Shown: positions 13,585-21,664 of the stretch, in pieces
How the letters are laid out: every line of letters starts with the position of its first letter
Numbering within the stretch: the stretch's first letter is position 1
Translations under genes and position numbers: made by a program
Source: a virus
DNA: 26,837 bases
Virus record (IMG/VR): IMGVR_UViG_3300025085_000153
Location: 1-26,837 of that record
Direction: 5' to 3' (one strand)
Notes under the pieces: model-generated
Seen by the model: only the letters and a program-made list of their open reading frames with translations
Told to the model about the DNA's origin: nothing
The model's database searches: none

Positions 13585-14388
13585 TTAGAAGTTGAATGAC
13601 AAGCCCGCTGCCGGTGTCACTGCTTCGTTATCTAGGTTGTATCCTGCTTCAGCGTAATAAGACACTGTACCACCAGCTAGATCACCATAGTAACCCGCAC
13701 CAATGTTTTGTGTCATGTCATCTGCGTCACCATTCATGAAGCCTGTTACACCGAATACACCTACGTTTACTTCATATGCGAAATCGTCTGCATATGTTAC
13801 AGTTGCACCTGCGGCATACTCTTCCATGATAATAAAGTCTGCAGTTGTTAGTACAGTCAAGTCTTCTGCATCTAGATTATAATCAACACCTGTTGATAGT
13901 GCGATACCTGCTAGACCTGTAGCATATGTTACTTGAACATTTTCTACATCTGTTAGGTCTTGACCAATATCAGTAAGACCAACGCCTGCGCTAATACCAC
14001 CCAAACCAAAGCGTAGTGTTTCATGAGCGTCTGCTGGATTAGCTAGAGTAGTCCCACCTACTACTTCGGTAACTCCACCAAAAGTATCTAGTAGATCGCC
14101 TTGATCACCGAAAGATACTGCAACGCCTGATACGTTACCACCCAACGAGTAACCATCTAGTACAACATCATCATCTTTTGTTGTTAGATCAATGCTTGCA
14201 ATACCAAATGGTGCTACAATACCAAGATCGATATCTGGAGTTCCAATCATATCGCCTGCAGCGTTTTCTGTTACATCAATACCTACAGATCCGAAGACCA
14301 TTGGTGAGTTGTATGTTGCGGCAGATTCTGCATTTGCTGTAGCAGCGAAAGTTGTACCTGCAATGATTGCTAAAATAGAAGTTTTCAT
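13585..14388 (-). CDS. Exported outer-membrane beta-barrel (porin-like) protein
   Basis: The 267-residue protein starts with a classic signal peptide, MKTSILAIIAGTTFAATANA, cut after AxA at about residue 20. The mature part is acidic, lacks cysteine and alternates polar and hydrophobic residues in short strands with G/D/N turns (ASIDLTTKDDDVVLDGYSLG, NVSGVAVSFGD, YYAEAGYNLDN). It ends in AAGLSFNF, with the C-terminal aromatic residue that the BAM machinery reads as an outer-membrane signal. This is the pattern of a Gram-negative porin of perhaps 12 strands, short for a general porin. It lies between a tmRNA gene and a phosphate permease, so it may pass phosphate across the outer membrane. It could instead alter receptor or superinfection properties. 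Only the barrel nature is visible. Confidence 0.8.
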   Translation of the reverse strand: MKTSILAIIAGTTFAATANAESAATYNSPMVFGSVGIDVTENAAGDMIGTPDIDLGIVAPFGIASIDLTTKDDDVVLDGYSLGGNVSGVAVSFGDQGDLLDTFGGVTEVVGGTTLANPADAHETLRFGLGGISAGVGLTDIGQDLTDVENVQVTYATGLAGIALSTGVDYNLDAEDLTVLTTADFIIMEEYAAGATVTYADDFAYEVNVGVFGVTGFMNGDADDMTQNIGAGYYGDLAGGTVSYYAEAGYNLDNEAVTPAAGLSFNF

Positions 14389-14414: not shown

Positions 14415-14450
14415 AAAAAAGTGTCACTTTTCTGTTGCTAGGTAAGTGAC
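14415..14450 (-). terminator. Intrinsic terminator of the tmRNA gene
   Basis: On the minus strand GTCACTT, a 14-nt loop and AAGTGAC form a perfect 7-bp stem followed by AC and six T. It closes the tmRNA transcript 27 bp before the porin start; the porin would need readthrough or a promoter inside the tmRNA gene. Confidence 0.8.
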
Positions 14451-14682
14451 CAACCCCCTGTGTTATGCCGCTAGGGCGTAACCAGATGGTGCGAAATTTT
14501 CATTTGCATTTAGTTTATTTAACCGAATAACGTAGGTCAACACGATAATCTCCACTCAACTAGCCCGCCTGTCGATCCTAGTTCATCCCCATCATAAAAA
14601 CACTCAGTGAATGTGCTTATGGTGGAGATGTCCGGTACTGCCCCGGAGTCCAGTTCGTCTTCGCCTCGCTTCATCAATTACA
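14430..14682 (-). ncRNA. ssrA: Two-piece (circularly permuted) tmRNA, alphaproteobacterial type
   Basis: Read on the minus strand, the acceptor piece comes first. A T arm TCCGG-GGCAGTA-CCGGA is followed by acceptor strand CATCTCC, discriminator A and an encoded CCA ending at 14620. After a 29-nt excised loop the coding piece starts at 14590 with GGGGATGAACTAGGATCGAC. GGGGATG pairs with CATCTCC over all 7 bp, with the only wobble being G3-U70, the alanyl-tRNA synthetase identity element. CTAGTT (14558-14563) pairs with AACTGG (14650-14655) as helix 2. The tag frame (14463-14507) starts with GCA and encodes ANENFAPSGYALAA then TAA, inside a helix-5 hairpin. Promoter and terminator are both present. 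It rescues stalled ribosomes and tags products for proteolysis with SmpB. The mature 5' and 3' ends are estimates. Confidence 0.93.
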
Positions 14683-14688
14683 AGACTA

Positions 14689-14717
14689 TGTATACACGAT
14701 TCGCACCTAAAAGTCAA
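14689..14717 (-). promoter_or_regulatory. Sigma70-like promoter of the tmRNA gene
   Basis: TTGACT (14712-14717), 17-bp spacer, TATACA (14689-14694). The spacer contains CGAATC, as in several early promoters here. A perfect inverted repeat TTCGCAC-N12-GTGCGAA (14700-14725) surrounds the -35 box and could be an operator. Confidence 0.8.
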
Positions 14718-14742
14718 TGTGCGAAACAATTAGATATTTTTA

Positions 14743-14760
14743 TGTGATAGATTTATCACA
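14743..14760. repeat. Perfect palindromic repeat at the bilin reductase stop
   Basis: TGTGATA-GATT-TATCACA has 7-bp arms and a 4-nt centre and overlaps the stop codon of the reductase gene. No T tract follows in the transcribed direction (TAAAAATATC), so it is a poor terminator. It may be an RNA 3'-end stabilising stem or an operator upstream of the tmRNA promoter. Confidence 0.55.
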
Positions 14761-15487
14761 CCAAGTCTAAGAGTATTGGTGTCGGATCAAATGGCTTTGG
14801 AACTTCAACTTCTGGGAACAAGCATTTTTCGATAAAGACTTTTACATCTTCTTCATCTAAACCAAGTGAAGCCATTGTTCTAGGAGTATGGGGATTTTGC
14901 TTTTGATAATGTGCATATCTATTTTGAGAAAGTGCGCCCAACTCATCACTAGAATTTCCTTGATATTTACCGATGTTATCAAGATAATAGTTTAAGTTTT
15001 CTTTAACAACGTACATCAACTGATTAATTTCAGCTTCTTCTTTTACATTGCCTGCGGCTATCATATCTTCATTAAAAATAGCTTTAGCCCATTCTGGAAG
15101 TTCTCGTTCACGTTTCCAATCAAGTTGCTTCGAAGTCTTAATGAAGTAATCAATCATATGATGCTCTGAATTAGTTGTTGCACTAAAATCATGGAAAGCG
15201 CCAGTCATCTTGTTCTTTCCTGCAATAACATCAAAGCCAAAGATTGGACCATCGTTACCTAGTTCTGGGAAAATGCATACGTGCATCATCCACAATCCTT
15301 TACTCTTACGTGCATCAACAATATCTAAATGCGCTCGGCGATAGTCTTTAGAATTCCAAACACGGTTAACCCATCCTGGTTGATTAAAGCGATCCATACC
15401 TTCTTCATGAATCTCTAAACCTGTTTGTTCTAATCTTGTTATGATGTGTTGTTTAAGCCCTAGTAAGCTTCCCCAAATCTGTGACAT
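14756..15487 (-). CDS. pcyX: Ferredoxin-dependent bilin reductase, PcyX/PcyA type
   Basis: The 243-residue product is a ferredoxin-dependent bilin reductase. The core reads HLDIVDARKSKGLWMMHVCI, then FPELGNDGPIFGFDVIAG and KNKMTGAFHDFSA. By spacing, H69 and D86 match PcyA His88 and Asp105 (17 apart in both). H53 matches His74, and D55 stands where PcyA has Glu76. An Asp at that place is, as I recall, a mark of PcyX, the reductase described from uncultured oceanic phages that makes phycoerythrobilin from biliverdin. It follows heme oxygenase, which supplies biliverdin, with a 35-bp overlap and a GAGGAG ribosome binding site. Electrons would come from a ferredoxin not seen in this window. The exact bilin product cannot be read from sequence. 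Confidence 0.85.
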   Translation of the reverse strand: MSQIWGSLLGLKQHIITRLEQTGLEIHEEGMDRFNQPGWVNRVWNSKDYRRAHLDIVDARKSKGLWMMHVCIFPELGNDGPIFGFDVIAGKNKMTGAFHDFSATTNSEHHMIDYFIKTSKQLDWKRERELPEWAKAIFNEDMIAAGNVKEEAEINQLMYVVKENLNYYLDNIGKYQGNSSDELGALSQNRYAHYQKQNPHTPRTMASLGLDEEDVKVFIEKCLFPEVEVPKPFDPTPILLDLV

Positions 15488-16028
15488 TTTCTAACTCCTC
15501 AAATAATCTAATAGCGAATTCAAAACAAATATTGGCTTCGACAGCCATTTCGTCTGTCAATAGCTCCCGTACATATACTTTTAACTTTTCTTTATCATCA
15601 AACTCATACATCGCACCAGAGCCAGGAACACGTTTCTTAATAATAGCACCGCCATACATATCACCGAAGTGTCGGACATACATATGAGCAATCAGTTTTT
15701 CGTATTCATTTTTCTTTTCTAAATTGTATATATGTTCTATGTATTGAGCATTAGAAACAGTGCATATGTAAGGGTCATAAAAGAACCCATGCAACTCTTC
15801 TAGTTCTTGCATATCTTTTAGGATATGTGATGCTCGAAATACTGGTTGAATATATACTGGAAGGCCTTGAACTTTTAAAGCATCTTCTAGTATCACGTAA
15901 TTGTAATACTGGTTCGTTAGATATCGATAGTAAAGTTCTGGATCTATTTCACCACTAAGAAGTATCTTAGCAAAGCCTCTACGTTCAGCTTTCTTGTGAT
16001 TTTCCCATGTTAACTCTTTCAAGTTCAT
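15453..16028 (-). CDS. ho1: Heme oxygenase (heme to biliverdin)
   Basis: The 191-residue product is a bacterial/phage heme oxygenase; it opens the heme ring to biliverdin, releasing iron and carbon monoxide. The N-terminus LTWENHKKAERRGFAKILLS carries the proximal heme-ligand His11. LYYRYLTNQYYNYVILEDAL follows. The distal helix AHMYVRHFGDMYGG (residues 114-127) matches the family motif GDxxGG. The length is slightly below cyanobacterial HO1 (about 240). It lies in the order kinase-like, DUF1289, heme oxygenase, bilin reductase, with a 3-bp gap before it and a strong AAGGG ribosome binding site. Biliverdin is the substrate of the next gene, so the two form a compact pathway from heme to a reduced bilin. 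Confidence 0.93.
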   Translation of the reverse strand: MNLKELTWENHKKAERRGFAKILLSGEIDPELYYRYLTNQYYNYVILEDALKVQGLPVYIQPVFRASHILKDMQELEELHGFFYDPYICTVSNAQYIEHIYNLEKKNEYEKLIAHMYVRHFGDMYGGAIIKKRVPGSGAMYEFDDKEKLKVYVRELLTDEMAVEANICFEFAIRLFEELENVTDLGKLTRA

Positions 16029-16237: not shown

Positions 16238-17143
16238 CTATAGATCGGTCCAGTCAACATTTTTAGGGACATAAGACTGAATCTTCATCTTTAAGTCTTT
16301 TGCTAGTTGGGCTTGAGGTGTAACTTCTTTACCCTTACGCTTTACGTAGAAGTAGTTAGCATCTTTGACAGACATTCCACCGCCTTTGCCTTTTTCGATT
16401 TCTGTGTCTACACCAACTTTGTTGAAAGCAAATACGATATCGCCATCCATATATTTCTTTAGAGTTTTACCCATGTTGATAATATCAAGCATAGTCTGAG
16501 ATGCACCACGATGAGTGTTGACTAAAATCTCTACTGGTACTTTTCTACTACGCTTTGCATTCTGGTCGATAGCAACTTCGATATCATTTACAACCCAAAC
16601 GATGTGAACGTTTTCTTTTGCATAACCAATGTTCGATACTTGACGTGTTAAGTTCTGTAACTTTCTTAAGTCTTTTAAAGTTACGTCAAAGATGATGTTT
16701 GGCTTACGATCATCGGCCGCTGTCATAACAGAAGCATAGAATGCTTGCATCTTTTTATCTGGTAAGTTTAATGCGTCACCAATAATCTCATGCAACTTAG
16801 CAACATTATCGGGATTCTTTAGATTAGAAGCTAGGTCTTTAAGGTCAACACCAAACTCGGCCTTTACCTTTTTAACAATAGCAGGAGTCTTAGAAGCAAG
16901 TGTTTTAAGTTCATCAACATCAAAGACCTTACCTTCAAGGCCAACTAGCTTGTCTTTTACAAACCCTTTACCTGATCCAGCACCGCCTGCCATGATAACA
17001 ATATTACCAAACTTAGGATATGCCTTGCCGCCAAATGTAATTAGCTTTTCGAGTAATATCTCATACTGCTCTTCGATGTATTCTTCTCGAATAGTTTCTT
17101 CGACTATCGCAACATCTTTGAGGAATGTACTAAGGGATTTCAA
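16238..17143 (-). CDS. Zeta-toxin/kinase-like P-loop NTPase
   Basis: The 301-residue product has FGNIVIMAGGAGSGKGFVKD with a Walker A (GGAGSGKG, residues 53-60). It then has VFDVDELK and NIIFDVTLKD (a Walker B-like or phosphate-acceptor region), and HIVWVVNDIEVAIDQNAKRS with basic lid residues. This is the layout of zeta-toxin/polynucleotide-kinase-type proteins found in marine T4-like phages. The substrate is unknown. The start is TTG at 17143, supported by GGAG seven to eight bases upstream; there is no good ATG nearby. A T4-late box at 17175-17182 precedes it, so it leads the operon with DUF1289, heme oxygenase and the bilin reductase. Confidence 0.75.
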   Translation of the reverse strand: MKSLSTFLKDVAIVEETIREEYIEEQYEILLEKLITFGGKAYPKFGNIVIMAGGAGSGKGFVKDKLVGLEGKVFDVDELKTLASKTPAIVKKVKAEFGVDLKDLASNLKNPDNVAKLHEIIGDALNLPDKKMQAFYASVMTAADDRKPNIIFDVTLKDLRKLQNLTRQVSNIGYAKENVHIVWVVNDIEVAIDQNAKRSRKVPVEILVNTHRGASQTMLDIINMGKTLKKYMDGDIVFAFNKVGVDTEIEKGKGGGMSVKDANYFYVKRKGKEVTPQAQLAKDLKMKIQSYVPKNVDWTDL

Positions 17144-18244: not shown

Positions 18245-19405
18245 TTAAAACGGTGCGTCTTCCTCACCGACCTCATCTTCATTATATGAGTATGTACCAT
18301 CGGTAACATCGCCATCAATCTTTTCATAAAGGTCAATGAAAGCCGCACGTGTATCTGGATCAAAACGATTTACACACAATTCAATCGACTTCATTTTATC
18401 ATTAAAGATAGAGAAGGTCTGTACAATATGACACAACCGACGTGTTGAGATGATATCATCAACACCACCATCTTCAAAGGTTTTACGAATAGCTTGACCC
18501 CAATTGACCAACTTCTCGGCAAATTCGGTATCGTCTGCACCAAACTTCTGCATGTGATTTACAACGATACGCTTTTCAACTTTGATGGTTGGGTAAGGTT
18601 GCTCAAGTGTCACATTGAAACGCTCAAGAAAAGCTTCATCAATGATCGTGGCCGCAATAAAGCGCCCTGCTTCATCACCTTGACCCTTAGTGTTTGCGGT
18701 TGCAATCACGTTAAAGCCAGGTGCAGGTTGGACAACTTCACCAGTCTTTTTGATCAAGACAGGCTTGCCCTCAAGGACACCTTGCAAACACATTAGCTTG
18801 TTAGAGCCACGGTCAATTTCATCAATCAACAAAATTGCACCAGCTTCCATTGCTTTGATCACTGGACCTTTTGCAAAGACAGTTTCACCGTTAAGCAAAC
18901 GAAAGCCACCGATCAAATCATCTTCATCTGTCTCGGGTGTAATCTGAACACGGACATATTCACGCTTGGCGTTTGCACAAGCTTGTTCAATCATCATGGT
19001 CTTACCGTTACCAGATAGACCAGCGACATACATTGGAAAGAACATACCAGAGTCGATAATCTGCTTCACGTCTTTGAAGTAACCCCATTTTACAAAGGTT
19101 GAATCTTTCGCAGGAACATAAACTTCATCTGATGAAGTAGATTGAACACGCAAAGGATTGGTCACTTGAACGGGAGCAGCTGTCGGTAGCTGAACAATTT
19201 TAGTTGGAGCTGAAGATGTTAAAGACATTTTATAAACACCGTAGCCAGCTTTTTCACATTTCTTCATAAGACCAGAAGCTGTGCCACGCTTTGCACCGAT
19301 AGATGCGGCAAACGCAAACATATCTTGGCGCTTAAACGTTTCGGCACCTGGGTTAGAGTTTTCAAAAGCTGCTAAAAGTTCTGTTTGAGTCATCACATTT
19401 TTCAT
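18245..19405 (-). CDS. cobS: CobS-like MoxR-type AAA+ ATPase
   Basis: The 386-residue protein has an N-terminal helical region (residues 1-60, with a FKRQDMFAFAASIGAKRGTA motif), a Pro/Thr linker, then an AAA+ domain. Walker A is GLSGNGKT (129-136), Walker B LLIDEID (192-198), sensor-1 ATAN (236-239) and an EAFLERF segment (258-264) with the likely arginine finger. This is the CobS/MoxR arrangement common in marine T4-like phages, where it is usually called porphyrin biosynthesis protein CobS. Cobalt insertion is not shown; MoxR proteins generally act with VWA partners as chaperone-like machines, and such a partner is encoded next door. It has its own early promoter overlapped by a large inverted repeat. 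Confidence 0.9.
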   Translation of the reverse strand: MKNVMTQTELLAAFENSNPGAETFKRQDMFAFAASIGAKRGTASGLMKKCEKAGYGVYKMSLTSSAPTKIVQLPTAAPVQVTNPLRVQSTSSDEVYVPAKDSTFVKWGYFKDVKQIIDSGMFFPMYVAGLSGNGKTMMIEQACANAKREYVRVQITPETDEDDLIGGFRLLNGETVFAKGPVIKAMEAGAILLIDEIDRGSNKLMCLQGVLEGKPVLIKKTGEVVQPAPGFNVIATANTKGQGDEAGRFIAATIIDEAFLERFNVTLEQPYPTIKVEKRIVVNHMQKFGADDTEFAEKLVNWGQAIRKTFEDGGVDDIISTRRLCHIVQTFSIFNDKMKSIELCVNRFDPDTRAAFIDLYEKIDGDVTDGTYSYNEDEVGEEDAPF

Positions 19406-19436
19406 ATCGAATCACTTTCTCTCTTGTTACTCTTAT

Positions 19437-19465
19437 AATATAAGCACTTTGGTGGAAGAAGTCAA
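19437..19465 (-). promoter_or_regulatory. Sigma70-like early promoter of the CobS-like gene, with inverted repeat
   Basis: TTGACT (19460-19465), 17 bp, TATATT (19437-19442). A perfect 8-bp inverted repeat GGTGGAAG-N10-CTTCCACC (19451-19476) encloses the -35 box and looks like an operator. The leader carries the GTAACAAG element shared with other early genes. Confidence 0.85.
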
Positions 19466-19489
19466 GGGCTTCCACCAAGGTTTTTTGGT

Positions 19490-21664
19490 TTAGGCCACCA
19501 ACTCTGCAAACTTTTGAGTGATAACCTTCGACTTCTTTTTAGAGCCATTTGATTTGTTGAATGCTTTTGCAATCTTGGCTACAGTCATATCGCTATCAAC
19601 ATCAAGGTCTTCGATTTGCTCACTCATTTTATCTGCGGGCATAACGAACCGACGATCATAGCCACAGTTATTGTCAAACAATGCTACACCAGTATCACGA
19701 ATCTCTTTTTTCTTTGCTCGGAACTTCGAATCTGTCTTATAGACATAACCCAATGAGCGACATAGTTCGCCATTCAATTCGTAATTACGATCAGCAATAA
19801 AGTAGTTTAGAGTTGATACGCCCATATCACCAATTGCTTTTACTAGTGAACTAGTATGATCACGACGATTACCACGACCCAAATCAACCATCTTGCCATT
19901 TACTTCGACAGATAGGTTACGATAACGATACCCATAGCCTTGATCATAGCTTAGATCATCACCACCTATAGGTAGGATGCCATTGCTATCGCCATCGGTC
20001 AATGCAACGAAGTTCATTTTTTGAACACGATGCTTTTCACGGAAATCTTCAATGATATATTGCATAGCCATCAAAGCTGTGTTGAGTGGCGTGTTGCCCA
20101 ACTGCTCAAATTCTGAAATTGAACTTGAACGATTTACTGTCTGCCAGAACATCCGACGGAAAGCTTCATCATAATCACGTTTGGTCATAGTTGAGTCAAA
20201 CAATTTTAGCAACGCCAACTCTGTAGATTCAATGTGAGTAACAGAAGGCTTTGCCGCTTTCTTTTTAGCTAACATTGGTTTCCAATCGTCATGGCTACCA
20301 ACTGAAGTGAAGGAATAAACTTCGAAAGGAATACCCACTCGCTTACAGAACATCATCAATGTCAAAGTCTGACGGATCACACCAGGTAGTGTGTGGTACA
20401 TAGACCCAGAGTAATCAATCAACATCATCATGCCGTGGTTTTTAGCATCAGCAATGTTGCTAACCTGCTTAAACAGCATATCATCATACTGGTACTTGTG
20501 AAGCTTGTTTACATCAATAGTACCTTTAGTTGACTCACGGGCACGAAGTGAACGCCAAGCGGCCTTTCTCATTTCGAATTCTTTGACCATCAGGTTTACA
20601 ACCCGCTTAGTTTCTTTGATGAACGTGACATATTTGTCTTCAGGAAACTCTGGGTTATAACCATAGCCTTTCTGTGTTTCTAACCAACGCTGACGACCAT
20701 CACGGATTTCTTCATAAGAGATAGTGCAAGCTTTAGCCTCTTGACGGGTCAAGCCTTTTGCATAAACTACATCTGGAGACTTTAACTTTGAGACGTTCTC
20801 GTTGAAGTTCGTTTCTGTTAGAACTTCTTGGTCCATCAAACCGCTTTCAGGTGAATCAGGCATACTCGACTTAGGTTCTTCTTCGGCTTCTTCCTCTTCA
20901 CCGTTTTCACCAGTAGTTGCTTCTTCATTTGATTCATCAGTATCTTCTGAAGATTTGTTTTCTTCGTTACCGGTTTCACTTTCTTCTGTGCTTTCCTCAT
21001 CGGTCATAGAGTCTTCATTACTCTCGGTGCTTGAATCATCAGGATTCATCTCACTATCACCAGACATTGGAGAAGCTGTAAGAACTTCATTTTCAATTTT
21101 ATTATCGCTATCTTTTGACTTTTCACCAAGCCATTGTTGAATATCACGACAGCACTGAACAACGTCATCATAGGTTTCACAAGCTTTTGCTTGCGCTACA
21201 AAAGGTAGTTCATCATCTGCGAATGGGACATCAACTAGATCACGTGCTTTGGCGTGAATATTTAAACGATCCATGAACCCTAGTTCATAAAGATTTTTTT
21301 CTTTAATACCGAAGAGGTCTTTTTCACCCATCATCAATTCGGTATAGCCACGCTTAAAGTTACCGACAAGACCAGGGTACTTGCGGAGAATATGCTTTTC
21401 GATCCGAACATCTTCTACAATGTTCAGGTGTGAATGGGGAATACCTTCACTCACATATTCATTAAAATTTTCGGGAGTGAATAGGGCATGAGCAATCTCA
21501 TGACCGACAAGCATGTCAAGAACGTCTTTACTCATATCTTTCCAAAGCGGAAGACCGAGTGTACGTGATTTAACATCAAAGAACGCAGTTTCATAATTGC
21601 CCTGCTGCACTGTAATATTCTCGTTAGCGAGAAGGCGGGCAAGAACTGATTTTTGAGCAAACAT
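19490..21664 (-). CDS. cobT: CobT-like protein: HExxH metallopeptidase-like plus VWA domain
   Basis: The 724-residue protein has three parts. The N-terminal region carries HEIAH at residues 55-59 and a possible third ligand, Glu84 (NIVEDVRIEK), as in zinc metallopeptidases. A very acidic low-complexity stretch (about 185-268, rich in E, D, S) follows, as in CobT. The C-terminal half holds a VWA domain with the MIDAS motif DYSGS (417-421) and a downstream LTDGDS. CobT is the VWA partner of CobS in cobaltochelatase; the partner here lies just downstream with its own promoter. The third chelatase subunit, CobN, is not in this window. A peptidase or remodelling function with the AAA+ partner is therefore as likely as metal chelation. 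Confidence 0.88.
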   Translation of the reverse strand: MFAQKSVLARLLANENITVQQGNYETAFFDVKSRTLGLPLWKDMSKDVLDMLVGHEIAHALFTPENFNEYVSEGIPHSHLNIVEDVRIEKHILRKYPGLVGNFKRGYTELMMGEKDLFGIKEKNLYELGFMDRLNIHAKARDLVDVPFADDELPFVAQAKACETYDDVVQCCRDIQQWLGEKSKDSDNKIENEVLTASPMSGDSEMNPDDSSTESNEDSMTDEESTEESETGNEENKSSEDTDESNEEATTGENGEEEEAEEEPKSSMPDSPESGLMDQEVLTETNFNENVSKLKSPDVVYAKGLTRQEAKACTISYEEIRDGRQRWLETQKGYGYNPEFPEDKYVTFIKETKRVVNLMVKEFEMRKAAWRSLRARESTKGTIDVNKLHKYQYDDMLFKQVSNIADAKNHGMMMLIDYSGSMYHTLPGVIRQTLTLMMFCKRVGIPFEVYSFTSVGSHDDWKPMLAKKKAAKPSVTHIESTELALLKLFDSTMTKRDYDEAFRRMFWQTVNRSSSISEFEQLGNTPLNTALMAMQYIIEDFREKHRVQKMNFVALTDGDSNGILPIGGDDLSYDQGYGYRYRNLSVEVNGKMVDLGRGNRRDHTSSLVKAIGDMGVSTLNYFIADRNYELNGELCRSLGYVYKTDSKFRAKKKEIRDTGVALFDNNCGYDRRFVMPADKMSEQIEDLDVDSDMTVAKIAKAFNKSNGSKKKSKVITQKFAELVA

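Follow-up and report, generated by a model that had tools for sequence, protein, structure and literature searches.

Two-piece tmRNAs of marine phages have been described before: 53 were reported by ARAGORN in 18,146 phage genomes (PMC9004378), and a 2025 database holds 79 phage tmRNAs of all forms (PMC11915505). One described case is the ssrA gene of Melnitz EXVC044M (MZ577097; PMC9004378), which, like the gene studied here, is an alpha-type permuted tmRNA of a marine T4-like phage; the host of Melnitz is a methylotroph (OM43) (PMC9004378). Cargo in the intervening sequence (IVS) has also been reported, namely a tRNA-Ala in one nominally archaeal tmRNA and a repeat element in another, and the tmRNA database paper makes no mention of a protein gene inside an IVS (PMC11915505). 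A text search of the open-access literature likewise returned no description of a protein gene nested in a tmRNA IVS. In addition, the cassette of heme oxygenase and a PcyX-like protein is known from marine phages (PMC11480375).

Here, we analyzed a 26,837-base fragment (26.8 kb) of an IMG/VR virus record, hereafter the window. Its T4-like genes include those for baseplate hub, wedge, tube-cap, head closure and DNA end protector proteins, together with the gp59 helicase loader, the gp33 late-transcription regulator and gp32. The tmRNA gene and pcyX shared a strand in each of the 37 contigs measured, and in the nearest relatives the tmRNA gene was found 35-78 nt behind pcyX. The ORF that follows the tmRNA gene (13585-14388) has an apparent signal peptide and ends in Phe, features reminiscent of an outer-membrane barrel; it matched nothing in Pfam or PHROGs, and homologues occur after or near the tmRNA gene in several relatives. 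Elsewhere, the window carries beta-ketoacyl synthase domains (PF00109 and PF02801; 25862-26836, open at the contig end), and the stretches 16238-17143 and 18245-21664 hold a zeta-toxin-like kinase and an AAA ATPase (AAA_5, CbbQ_C) that adjoins a 724-aa acidic ORF lacking any Pfam match; we take the latter pair to recall CobS/CobT.

The region 14420-14721(-) is a complete, intact, circularly permuted alpha-type two-piece tmRNA gene, in which the acceptor piece is followed by the IVS and then by the coding piece. The Rfam model tmRNA_permuted (RF04321) matched 14463-14681(-) over model positions 1-213, that is, at full length, with 115.5 bits against a gathering threshold of 47 (E 3.4e-22). The best match within the clan was alpha_tmRNA (RF01849), which covered 14420-14721(-) with 108.8 bits against a threshold of 50 (E 3.7e-29) and included the motif ACCURGCAACAGAA at 14443-14430. 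Both matches bear out the sequence-only reading, made before any database search, which had proposed a two-piece tmRNA with the acceptor piece first and had named RF01849 as the check. Its landmarks were also right: 14620 is the last position of the encoded CCA, the coding piece begins with GGGGATGAAC at 14590, the 7-bp acceptor stem contains G3-U70 and the T arm is perfect. The resume alanine codon and a hydrophobic degron tag are present as ANENFAPSGYALAA, exactly the tag read earlier. Helix 2, which had been proposed to pair across the two pieces, is backed by the covariance-model alignment, with a few non-standard pairs. The likely pseudoknot PK1 would lie 11 nt upstream of the resume codon, and a single G-U to G-C change in one relative (L084) supports it. 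The folding energy of the tmRNA was 3.1 s.d. below that of dinucleotide shuffles. Coordinates are listed in Table 1.

Table 1. Features of the tmRNA locus and of the adjoining cassette in the window
Feature	Position	Strand	Basis or remark
Heme oxygenase	15453..16028	-	Pfam PF01126
Ferredoxin-dependent bilin reductase, PcyX-like, upstream of the tmRNA on the same strand	14756..15487	-	Pfam PF05996
tmRNA promoter, -35 TTGACT (14717-14712), 17-nt spacer, -10 TATACA (14694-14689)	14689..14717	-	position conserved in relatives
Acceptor piece (3' part of the tRNA-like domain), RF04321-matched extent	14620..14681	-	encoded CCA 14622-14620
T arm TCCGG-GGCAGTA-CCGGA	14631..14647	-	5/5 pairs; stem pairs covary in the family
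Acceptor stem 3' strand CATCTCC, with U70	14624..14630	-	followed by discriminator A 14623
IVS, 29 nt, discarded at maturation, without ORF	14591..14619	-	sequence reading
Acceptor stem 5' strand GGGGATG, with G3; start of the coding piece	14584..14590	-	7/7 pairs with 14624-14630
D-arm region AACTAGGATCGAC	14571..14583	-	RF04321/RF01849 alignment; signature nearly confined to viral contigs
Likely pseudoknot PK1, CGTG/TACG and TTGACC/GGTTAA	14519..14544	-	sequence reading; outside the Rfam models
Tag frame ANENFAPSGYALAA and stop TAA; GCA..GCA TAA	14507-14463	-	sequence; pN/pS of relatives
3' hairpin GTCACTT-ACCTAGCAACAGAA-AAGTGAC, 14-nt loop, conserved alpha-tmRNA end element	14423..14450	-	loop motif conserved
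T6 run after the hairpin, putative intrinsic terminator	14415..14420	-	sequence; T-rich in close relatives

ARAGORN reported no tmRNA in the window. We rejected this blank as a sign that no tmRNA is present and regard it as a limit of the tool, because two covariance models and the anatomy agree. The program found 56 of 63 RF04321-positive loci, the window and its three nearest relatives being among those missed. In a set of 164 distinct copies selected by a sequence pattern it found 98 and missed 66, and all 50 of the missed copies that were checked with RF04321 passed. ARAGORN-based counts of phage two-piece tmRNAs are thus too low. The tmRNA of Sinorhizobium phage Phosso (L260/L273), which has an IVS of 410 nt, is unannotated in its record and was also missed by ARAGORN.

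The promoter and terminator of the earlier reading were both recovered. The promoter of the window scores just 9/12, is weaker than the versions of its relatives and was not flagged by a consensus promoter scan; many relatives have TTGACA-17-TATAAA at the identical position and spacing, and among 39 distinct tmRNAs, 29 match TTGACA-N16-18-TATAAT at 10/12 or above (about 3.6% of shuffles do so). The word TATAAATA, which we take to be the T4 late-promoter word, occurs within the 78 nt examined upstream in 17 of the 39 (for example, L083 and L101), and where it could be aligned it forms the -10 element of the tmRNA promoter, 17 nt behind the conserved TTGACA. The tmRNA genes with this -10 element may be transcribed both early and late. 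At the other end, the 3' hairpin and T6 run together are likely to be an intrinsic terminator; they were not reported by a terminator scan, since it permits loops of 3-8 nt only. The loop motif AACAGAA is present in 36 of the 39 tmRNAs, and the stem varies while staying mostly paired.

We also used 80 contigs bearing a pcyX gene related to that of the window. RF04321 scored above its cut-off in 61 of them; some relatives had no detectable tmRNA, and most of these records are fragments. The sequence-only reading had called phage tmRNAs known but uncommon, of which the first part holds and the second does not, given these 61 contigs and the at least 120 viral contigs recovered by one pattern. 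Because variation in IVS length would misalign the sequences, helix conservation was counted by script at anchored positions in place of a MAFFT alignment. The closest copies (L084 and L085) have GGGGCTG/CAGCTCC where the window has GGGGATG/CATCTCC, with an identical tag, which by comparison of the sequences is a compensatory change; in the close relatives, both stem and tag are kept, and the disruption that the sequence-only reading had named as grounds for refutation was thus not observed. In a set of 38 distinct tmRNAs, pair 5 of the acceptor stem is found as A-U, C-G, G-C and U-A and pair 6 as U-A, C-G, A-U and one U-G, whereas G3-U70 is invariant although G3-C70 would pair too. In the independent pattern-selected set, acceptor and T stems were fully paired in 111 of the 120 viral loci listed, and U70 was kept in all 111 complete copies. 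Two pairs of relatives (L117 and L119, L105 and L106) have flanks that are 95-100% identical, with a T arm at 47% and a D-arm region at 59-71% identity; T arm and D-arm region differ jointly (for example, T loop GGCAGTA versus TTCAACT), and the comparison points to a cassette swap inside the tRNA-like domain. The swapped parts are contiguous in the permuted gene.

Selection is seen on the tag as well as on the stem. In pooled tag codons from 14 close pairs, a small sample with partly overlapping members, pS was 0.212 and pN 0.050 (ratio 0.24), and in the wider set each of the 98 tags that ARAGORN called terminates in AA. The tag thus appears to evolve as a peptide across the family, favoring active tagging over a decoy role. 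The latter, in which the tRNA-like domain would bind SmpB and block host trans-translation, as proposed for the tag-less form of DS6A, has a precedent in a tag-less phage tmRNA whose expression inhibits tmRNA (PMC4131195; PMC11915505). We consider it unlikely here: in the window copy and its relatives the tag frame is open and under purifying selection, with the resume alanine codon and the AA end retained, and the seemingly tag-less copies that were inspected (L194, L248, L222, G020 and G021) all proved either to have a tag or to be cut by the contig end. The earlier reading of a complete, seemingly functional form in a T4-like phage therefore stands as intact and probably functional, and we are confident, from sequence comparison, that this marine T4-like phage has, at this locus, a functional two-piece tmRNA gene.

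For its processing, charging and tagging, we infer the following from established two-piece tmRNA biology. RNA polymerase would initiate at the gene's own promoter, RNase P would cleave before G14590 and tRNA 3'-processing would finish the acceptor piece at the encoded CCA, so that the 29-nt IVS would be lost between the two cuts while the acceptor stem and helix 2 would hold the acceptor and coding pieces together. The host alanyl-tRNA synthetase would then charge the tmRNA via G3-U70, and host SmpB and EF-Tu would deliver it to ribosomes that have stalled on broken mRNAs. Translation would shift onto the tag, and ClpXP-type proteases would degrade the product. The likely benefit for the phage would be that ribosomes are kept free during host mRNA degradation and shut-off of host transcription.

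The 29-nt IVS of the window holds no nested ORF, and this copy would be the empty form of a nest-type tmRNA gene. In one member of its pcyX group (L022, contig G021), the IVS is 352 nt long, which explains the low tmRNA score of this locus, and is nearly filled by a membrane-protein-like ORF of 117 codons. The stop of this ORF is the TAG of GGGGGTGAAATAGG, inside the mature coding piece, and both acceptor stem and tag are intact. Like this one, nested ORFs led by a Shine-Dalgarno sequence were found in the same group in L012/L102 (31 codons), L104 (36) and L112/L113 (24). In a wider set of 225 distinct two-piece tmRNAs (220 of viral and 5 of cellular origin), 145 have an IVS of 60 nt or longer, and in 39 of these the ORF was longer than in dinucleotide shuffles (p<0.05), with a concentration among long IVSs (16 of 29 at 130-199 nt; 11 of 12 from 200 nt upward). 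A Shine-Dalgarno sequence followed by at least 18 codons was present in 42 of the 225 tmRNAs and in 40 of the 84 whose IVS measures 90 nt or more; nearly all relatives are metagenomic fragments. Most of these ORFs start 10-40 nt past the CCA, and their ends cluster, relative to G1, at -1 (16 cases, at the UGA of UUUGAUGGGG), +13 (11, at the UAG of GAAnUAGG), -7 (5) and -12 (4). The cellular two-piece tmRNAs, from five replicons only and with IVSs of 22-95 nt, had no ORF led by a Shine-Dalgarno sequence. In Melnitz, the IVS of 142 nt contains such a candidate ORF (MFKWLSKTRLVV...IPKYLSG..), which resembles a small set of metagenomic nested ORFs; it is less certain, because its frame continues into the coding piece.

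Three families, A, B and C, were followed by unrestricted homology searches of viral contigs (loci L405-L484, L485-L541 and L542-L579; further nested ORFs are at L022, L175, L178, L181, L184, L187, L190, L239, L245 and L312). Family A proteins have 38 aa and a single apparent membrane segment; they have 292 relatives, and the best 80 of these include 73 that are nested in a tmRNA IVS, each with its stop at -1. Of 57 family B loci (47 aa), 48 are nested, 39 with the stop at +13; for family C (about 77 aa, hydrophobic), the figure is 26 of 38, the stop being at -12 in all 26. Several of the non-nested loci are contig ends or copies with one motif base changed. Four copies of family A and one of family B sit just upstream of a tmRNA (L417, L418, L420, L434 and L541). 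Some family B copies (L494 and L507) lie away from any tmRNA, with the acceptor remnant GGGGTCGAA still present at the 3' end. More distant relatives in family C stand alone as genes, and three of these (L571-L573) have a homologue of the L178 nested ORF as a neighbor. Homologues outside the IVS suggest movement into and out of it. No significant match to any of the three families was found in PHROGs, Pfam or annotated phage genomes; family A gave a sub-threshold Pfam hint to DUF2542.

Independent nearest pairs gave pN/pS values of 0.16 for family A (21 pairs), 0.20 for B (12) and 0.10 for C (6), all three being under purifying selection. It might be argued that the nested frames are conserved RNA structure or chance open frames, since folding is frequent in short IVSs and certain conserved frames (for example, 'LRLTAIRC..') have no ribosome-binding site and resemble structured RNA. 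These low ratios in three families, however, together with Shine-Dalgarno sequences and fixed start offsets, an ORF that beats dinucleotide shuffles in 27 of the 41 IVSs of at least 130 nt, and the homologues of family C that stand outside tmRNA genes, leave this explanation little probability. On the evidence of the sequences, we think it highly likely that the IVS of phage two-piece tmRNAs encodes small conserved proteins whose families are missing from Pfam, PHROGs and annotated phage genomes.

The position of these ORFs could couple the nested protein to tmRNA output. Since the nested stop lies near or beyond the RNase P site, maturation would have to excise the nested message from the transcript, and each transcript would then yield either the nested protein, if translated before the RNase P cut, or a tmRNA. 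In the +13 class, the stop (the UAG of GGGGnnGAAnUAGG) lies inside the mature tmRNA, and so cleavage should leave a nonstop message, which the new tmRNA would itself rescue and tag, making the nested protein self-limited. We offer this coupling as a hypothesis with somewhat less than an even chance of being right. If phages do place conserved small-protein genes in the excised IVS of a ribosome-rescue RNA, then RNA processing, translation and rescue would compete on one transcript, a compact regulatory circuit open to direct test in an isolate, for example Melnitz.

With regard to origin, at least 120 viral contigs contain the D-arm signature GGGGNNGAACTAGGATCGACAG, against a single occurrence in 84,980 species genomes, on a phage contig in a MAG. 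The tmRNA gene lies 0.6-5 kb upstream of gp59-gp32 (and gp33 where detected) in the clade of the window, in Mosig, in Melnitz and in that same phage contig, which comes from an archaeal MAG. Based on this conserved placement and the essentially viral signature, the gene looks like an old resident of the phage group. Capture from one host clade, for which the sequence-only reading had set out a check, was not supported, the signature being essentially viral and the placement common to Mosig and Melnitz; a recent capture from the host is likewise not supported, because the gene is widespread in the phage group and its D-arm signature is viral. A passive and functionless capture of host ssrA, for example by imprecise excision, is very improbable: phages and islands do integrate at ssrA and leave fragments in prophages (discussed in PMC9004378), but the entire gene, promoter and terminator included, is retained here, diverged phages have it in a conserved location, its D-arm signature is essentially viral, and no integrase was found among the window proteins scanned.

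The alphaproteobacterial style of the tag, which the sequence-only reading took as a host clue, was confirmed as to type and is weak as to host, because Melnitz has an alpha-type tmRNA despite its methylotroph host and some pcyX phages (L082, L112 and L113) carry a beta-type tmRNA (RF01850, 127-140 bits). The latter suggests that the hosts of the pcyX phage group may extend beyond alphaproteobacteria. The archaeal MAG mentioned above, labelled Euryarchaeota (L135/L292, PBDU01000009.1), has its permuted tmRNA on a T4-like phage contig that carries gp59, gp32, gp2 and baseplate genes and has a family C ORF in its tmRNA IVS. An archaeal tmRNA was rejected, since this was the only permuted copy above the cut-off in the 293 genomes searched from the archaeal phylum of that MAG. 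No permuted tmRNA was found in the T4-like phage phiM12, whose gp59 is the closest among isolates. Searching annotated phages by blastn with the window tmRNA gave no match at 1e-5 and, at a loose limit, weak matches only, mainly to Melnitz.

Compared with known systems, the locus is most readily set beside Melnitz, in which the tmRNA also lies upstream of gp33 (late-transcription coactivator) and gp59; the order tmRNA-gp33-gp59-gp32 is common to the window, Melnitz, Mosig and another phage contig. The two tmRNAs share about 70% identity over 61% of the query. Melnitz has a glutamine riboswitch behind its tmRNA, which the window lacks, its IVS is 142 nt with a candidate nested ORF against 29 nt, and its tmRNA has no adjoining pcyX, unlike that of the window. 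Pelagibacter phage Mosig EXVC030M, like the window, has both hemO-pcyX and a permuted tmRNA; in Mosig they are about 71 kb apart, its pcyX is 49% identical and its tag is called as GEDNFALAA. Alphaproteobacterial ssrA (RF01849, for example, in Caulobacter) shares with the window the gene order, acceptor stem, T and D arms, tag style and 3' hairpin motif, whereas the D-arm reads GAACTAGG in the window and GAAATAGG/GAAACAGG in five cellular replicons, and the window gene stands in a phage gene context. Mycobacteriophage DS6A also bears a tmRNA-like RNA, but this is little beyond a tag-less tRNA-like domain, whereas that of the window is two-piece with a tag. The IVS-cargo tmRNAs (PMC11915505) resemble the nested-ORF relatives in having extra sequence in the excised IVS of a permuted tmRNA, and differ in that conserved protein genes with ribosome-binding sites, as seen in the relatives, are not mentioned for them. 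Therefore, as phage two-piece tmRNAs have already been published (Melnitz and Mosig), the window copy is an ordinary further member of this class, and the novelty lies in the nested ORFs of its relatives.
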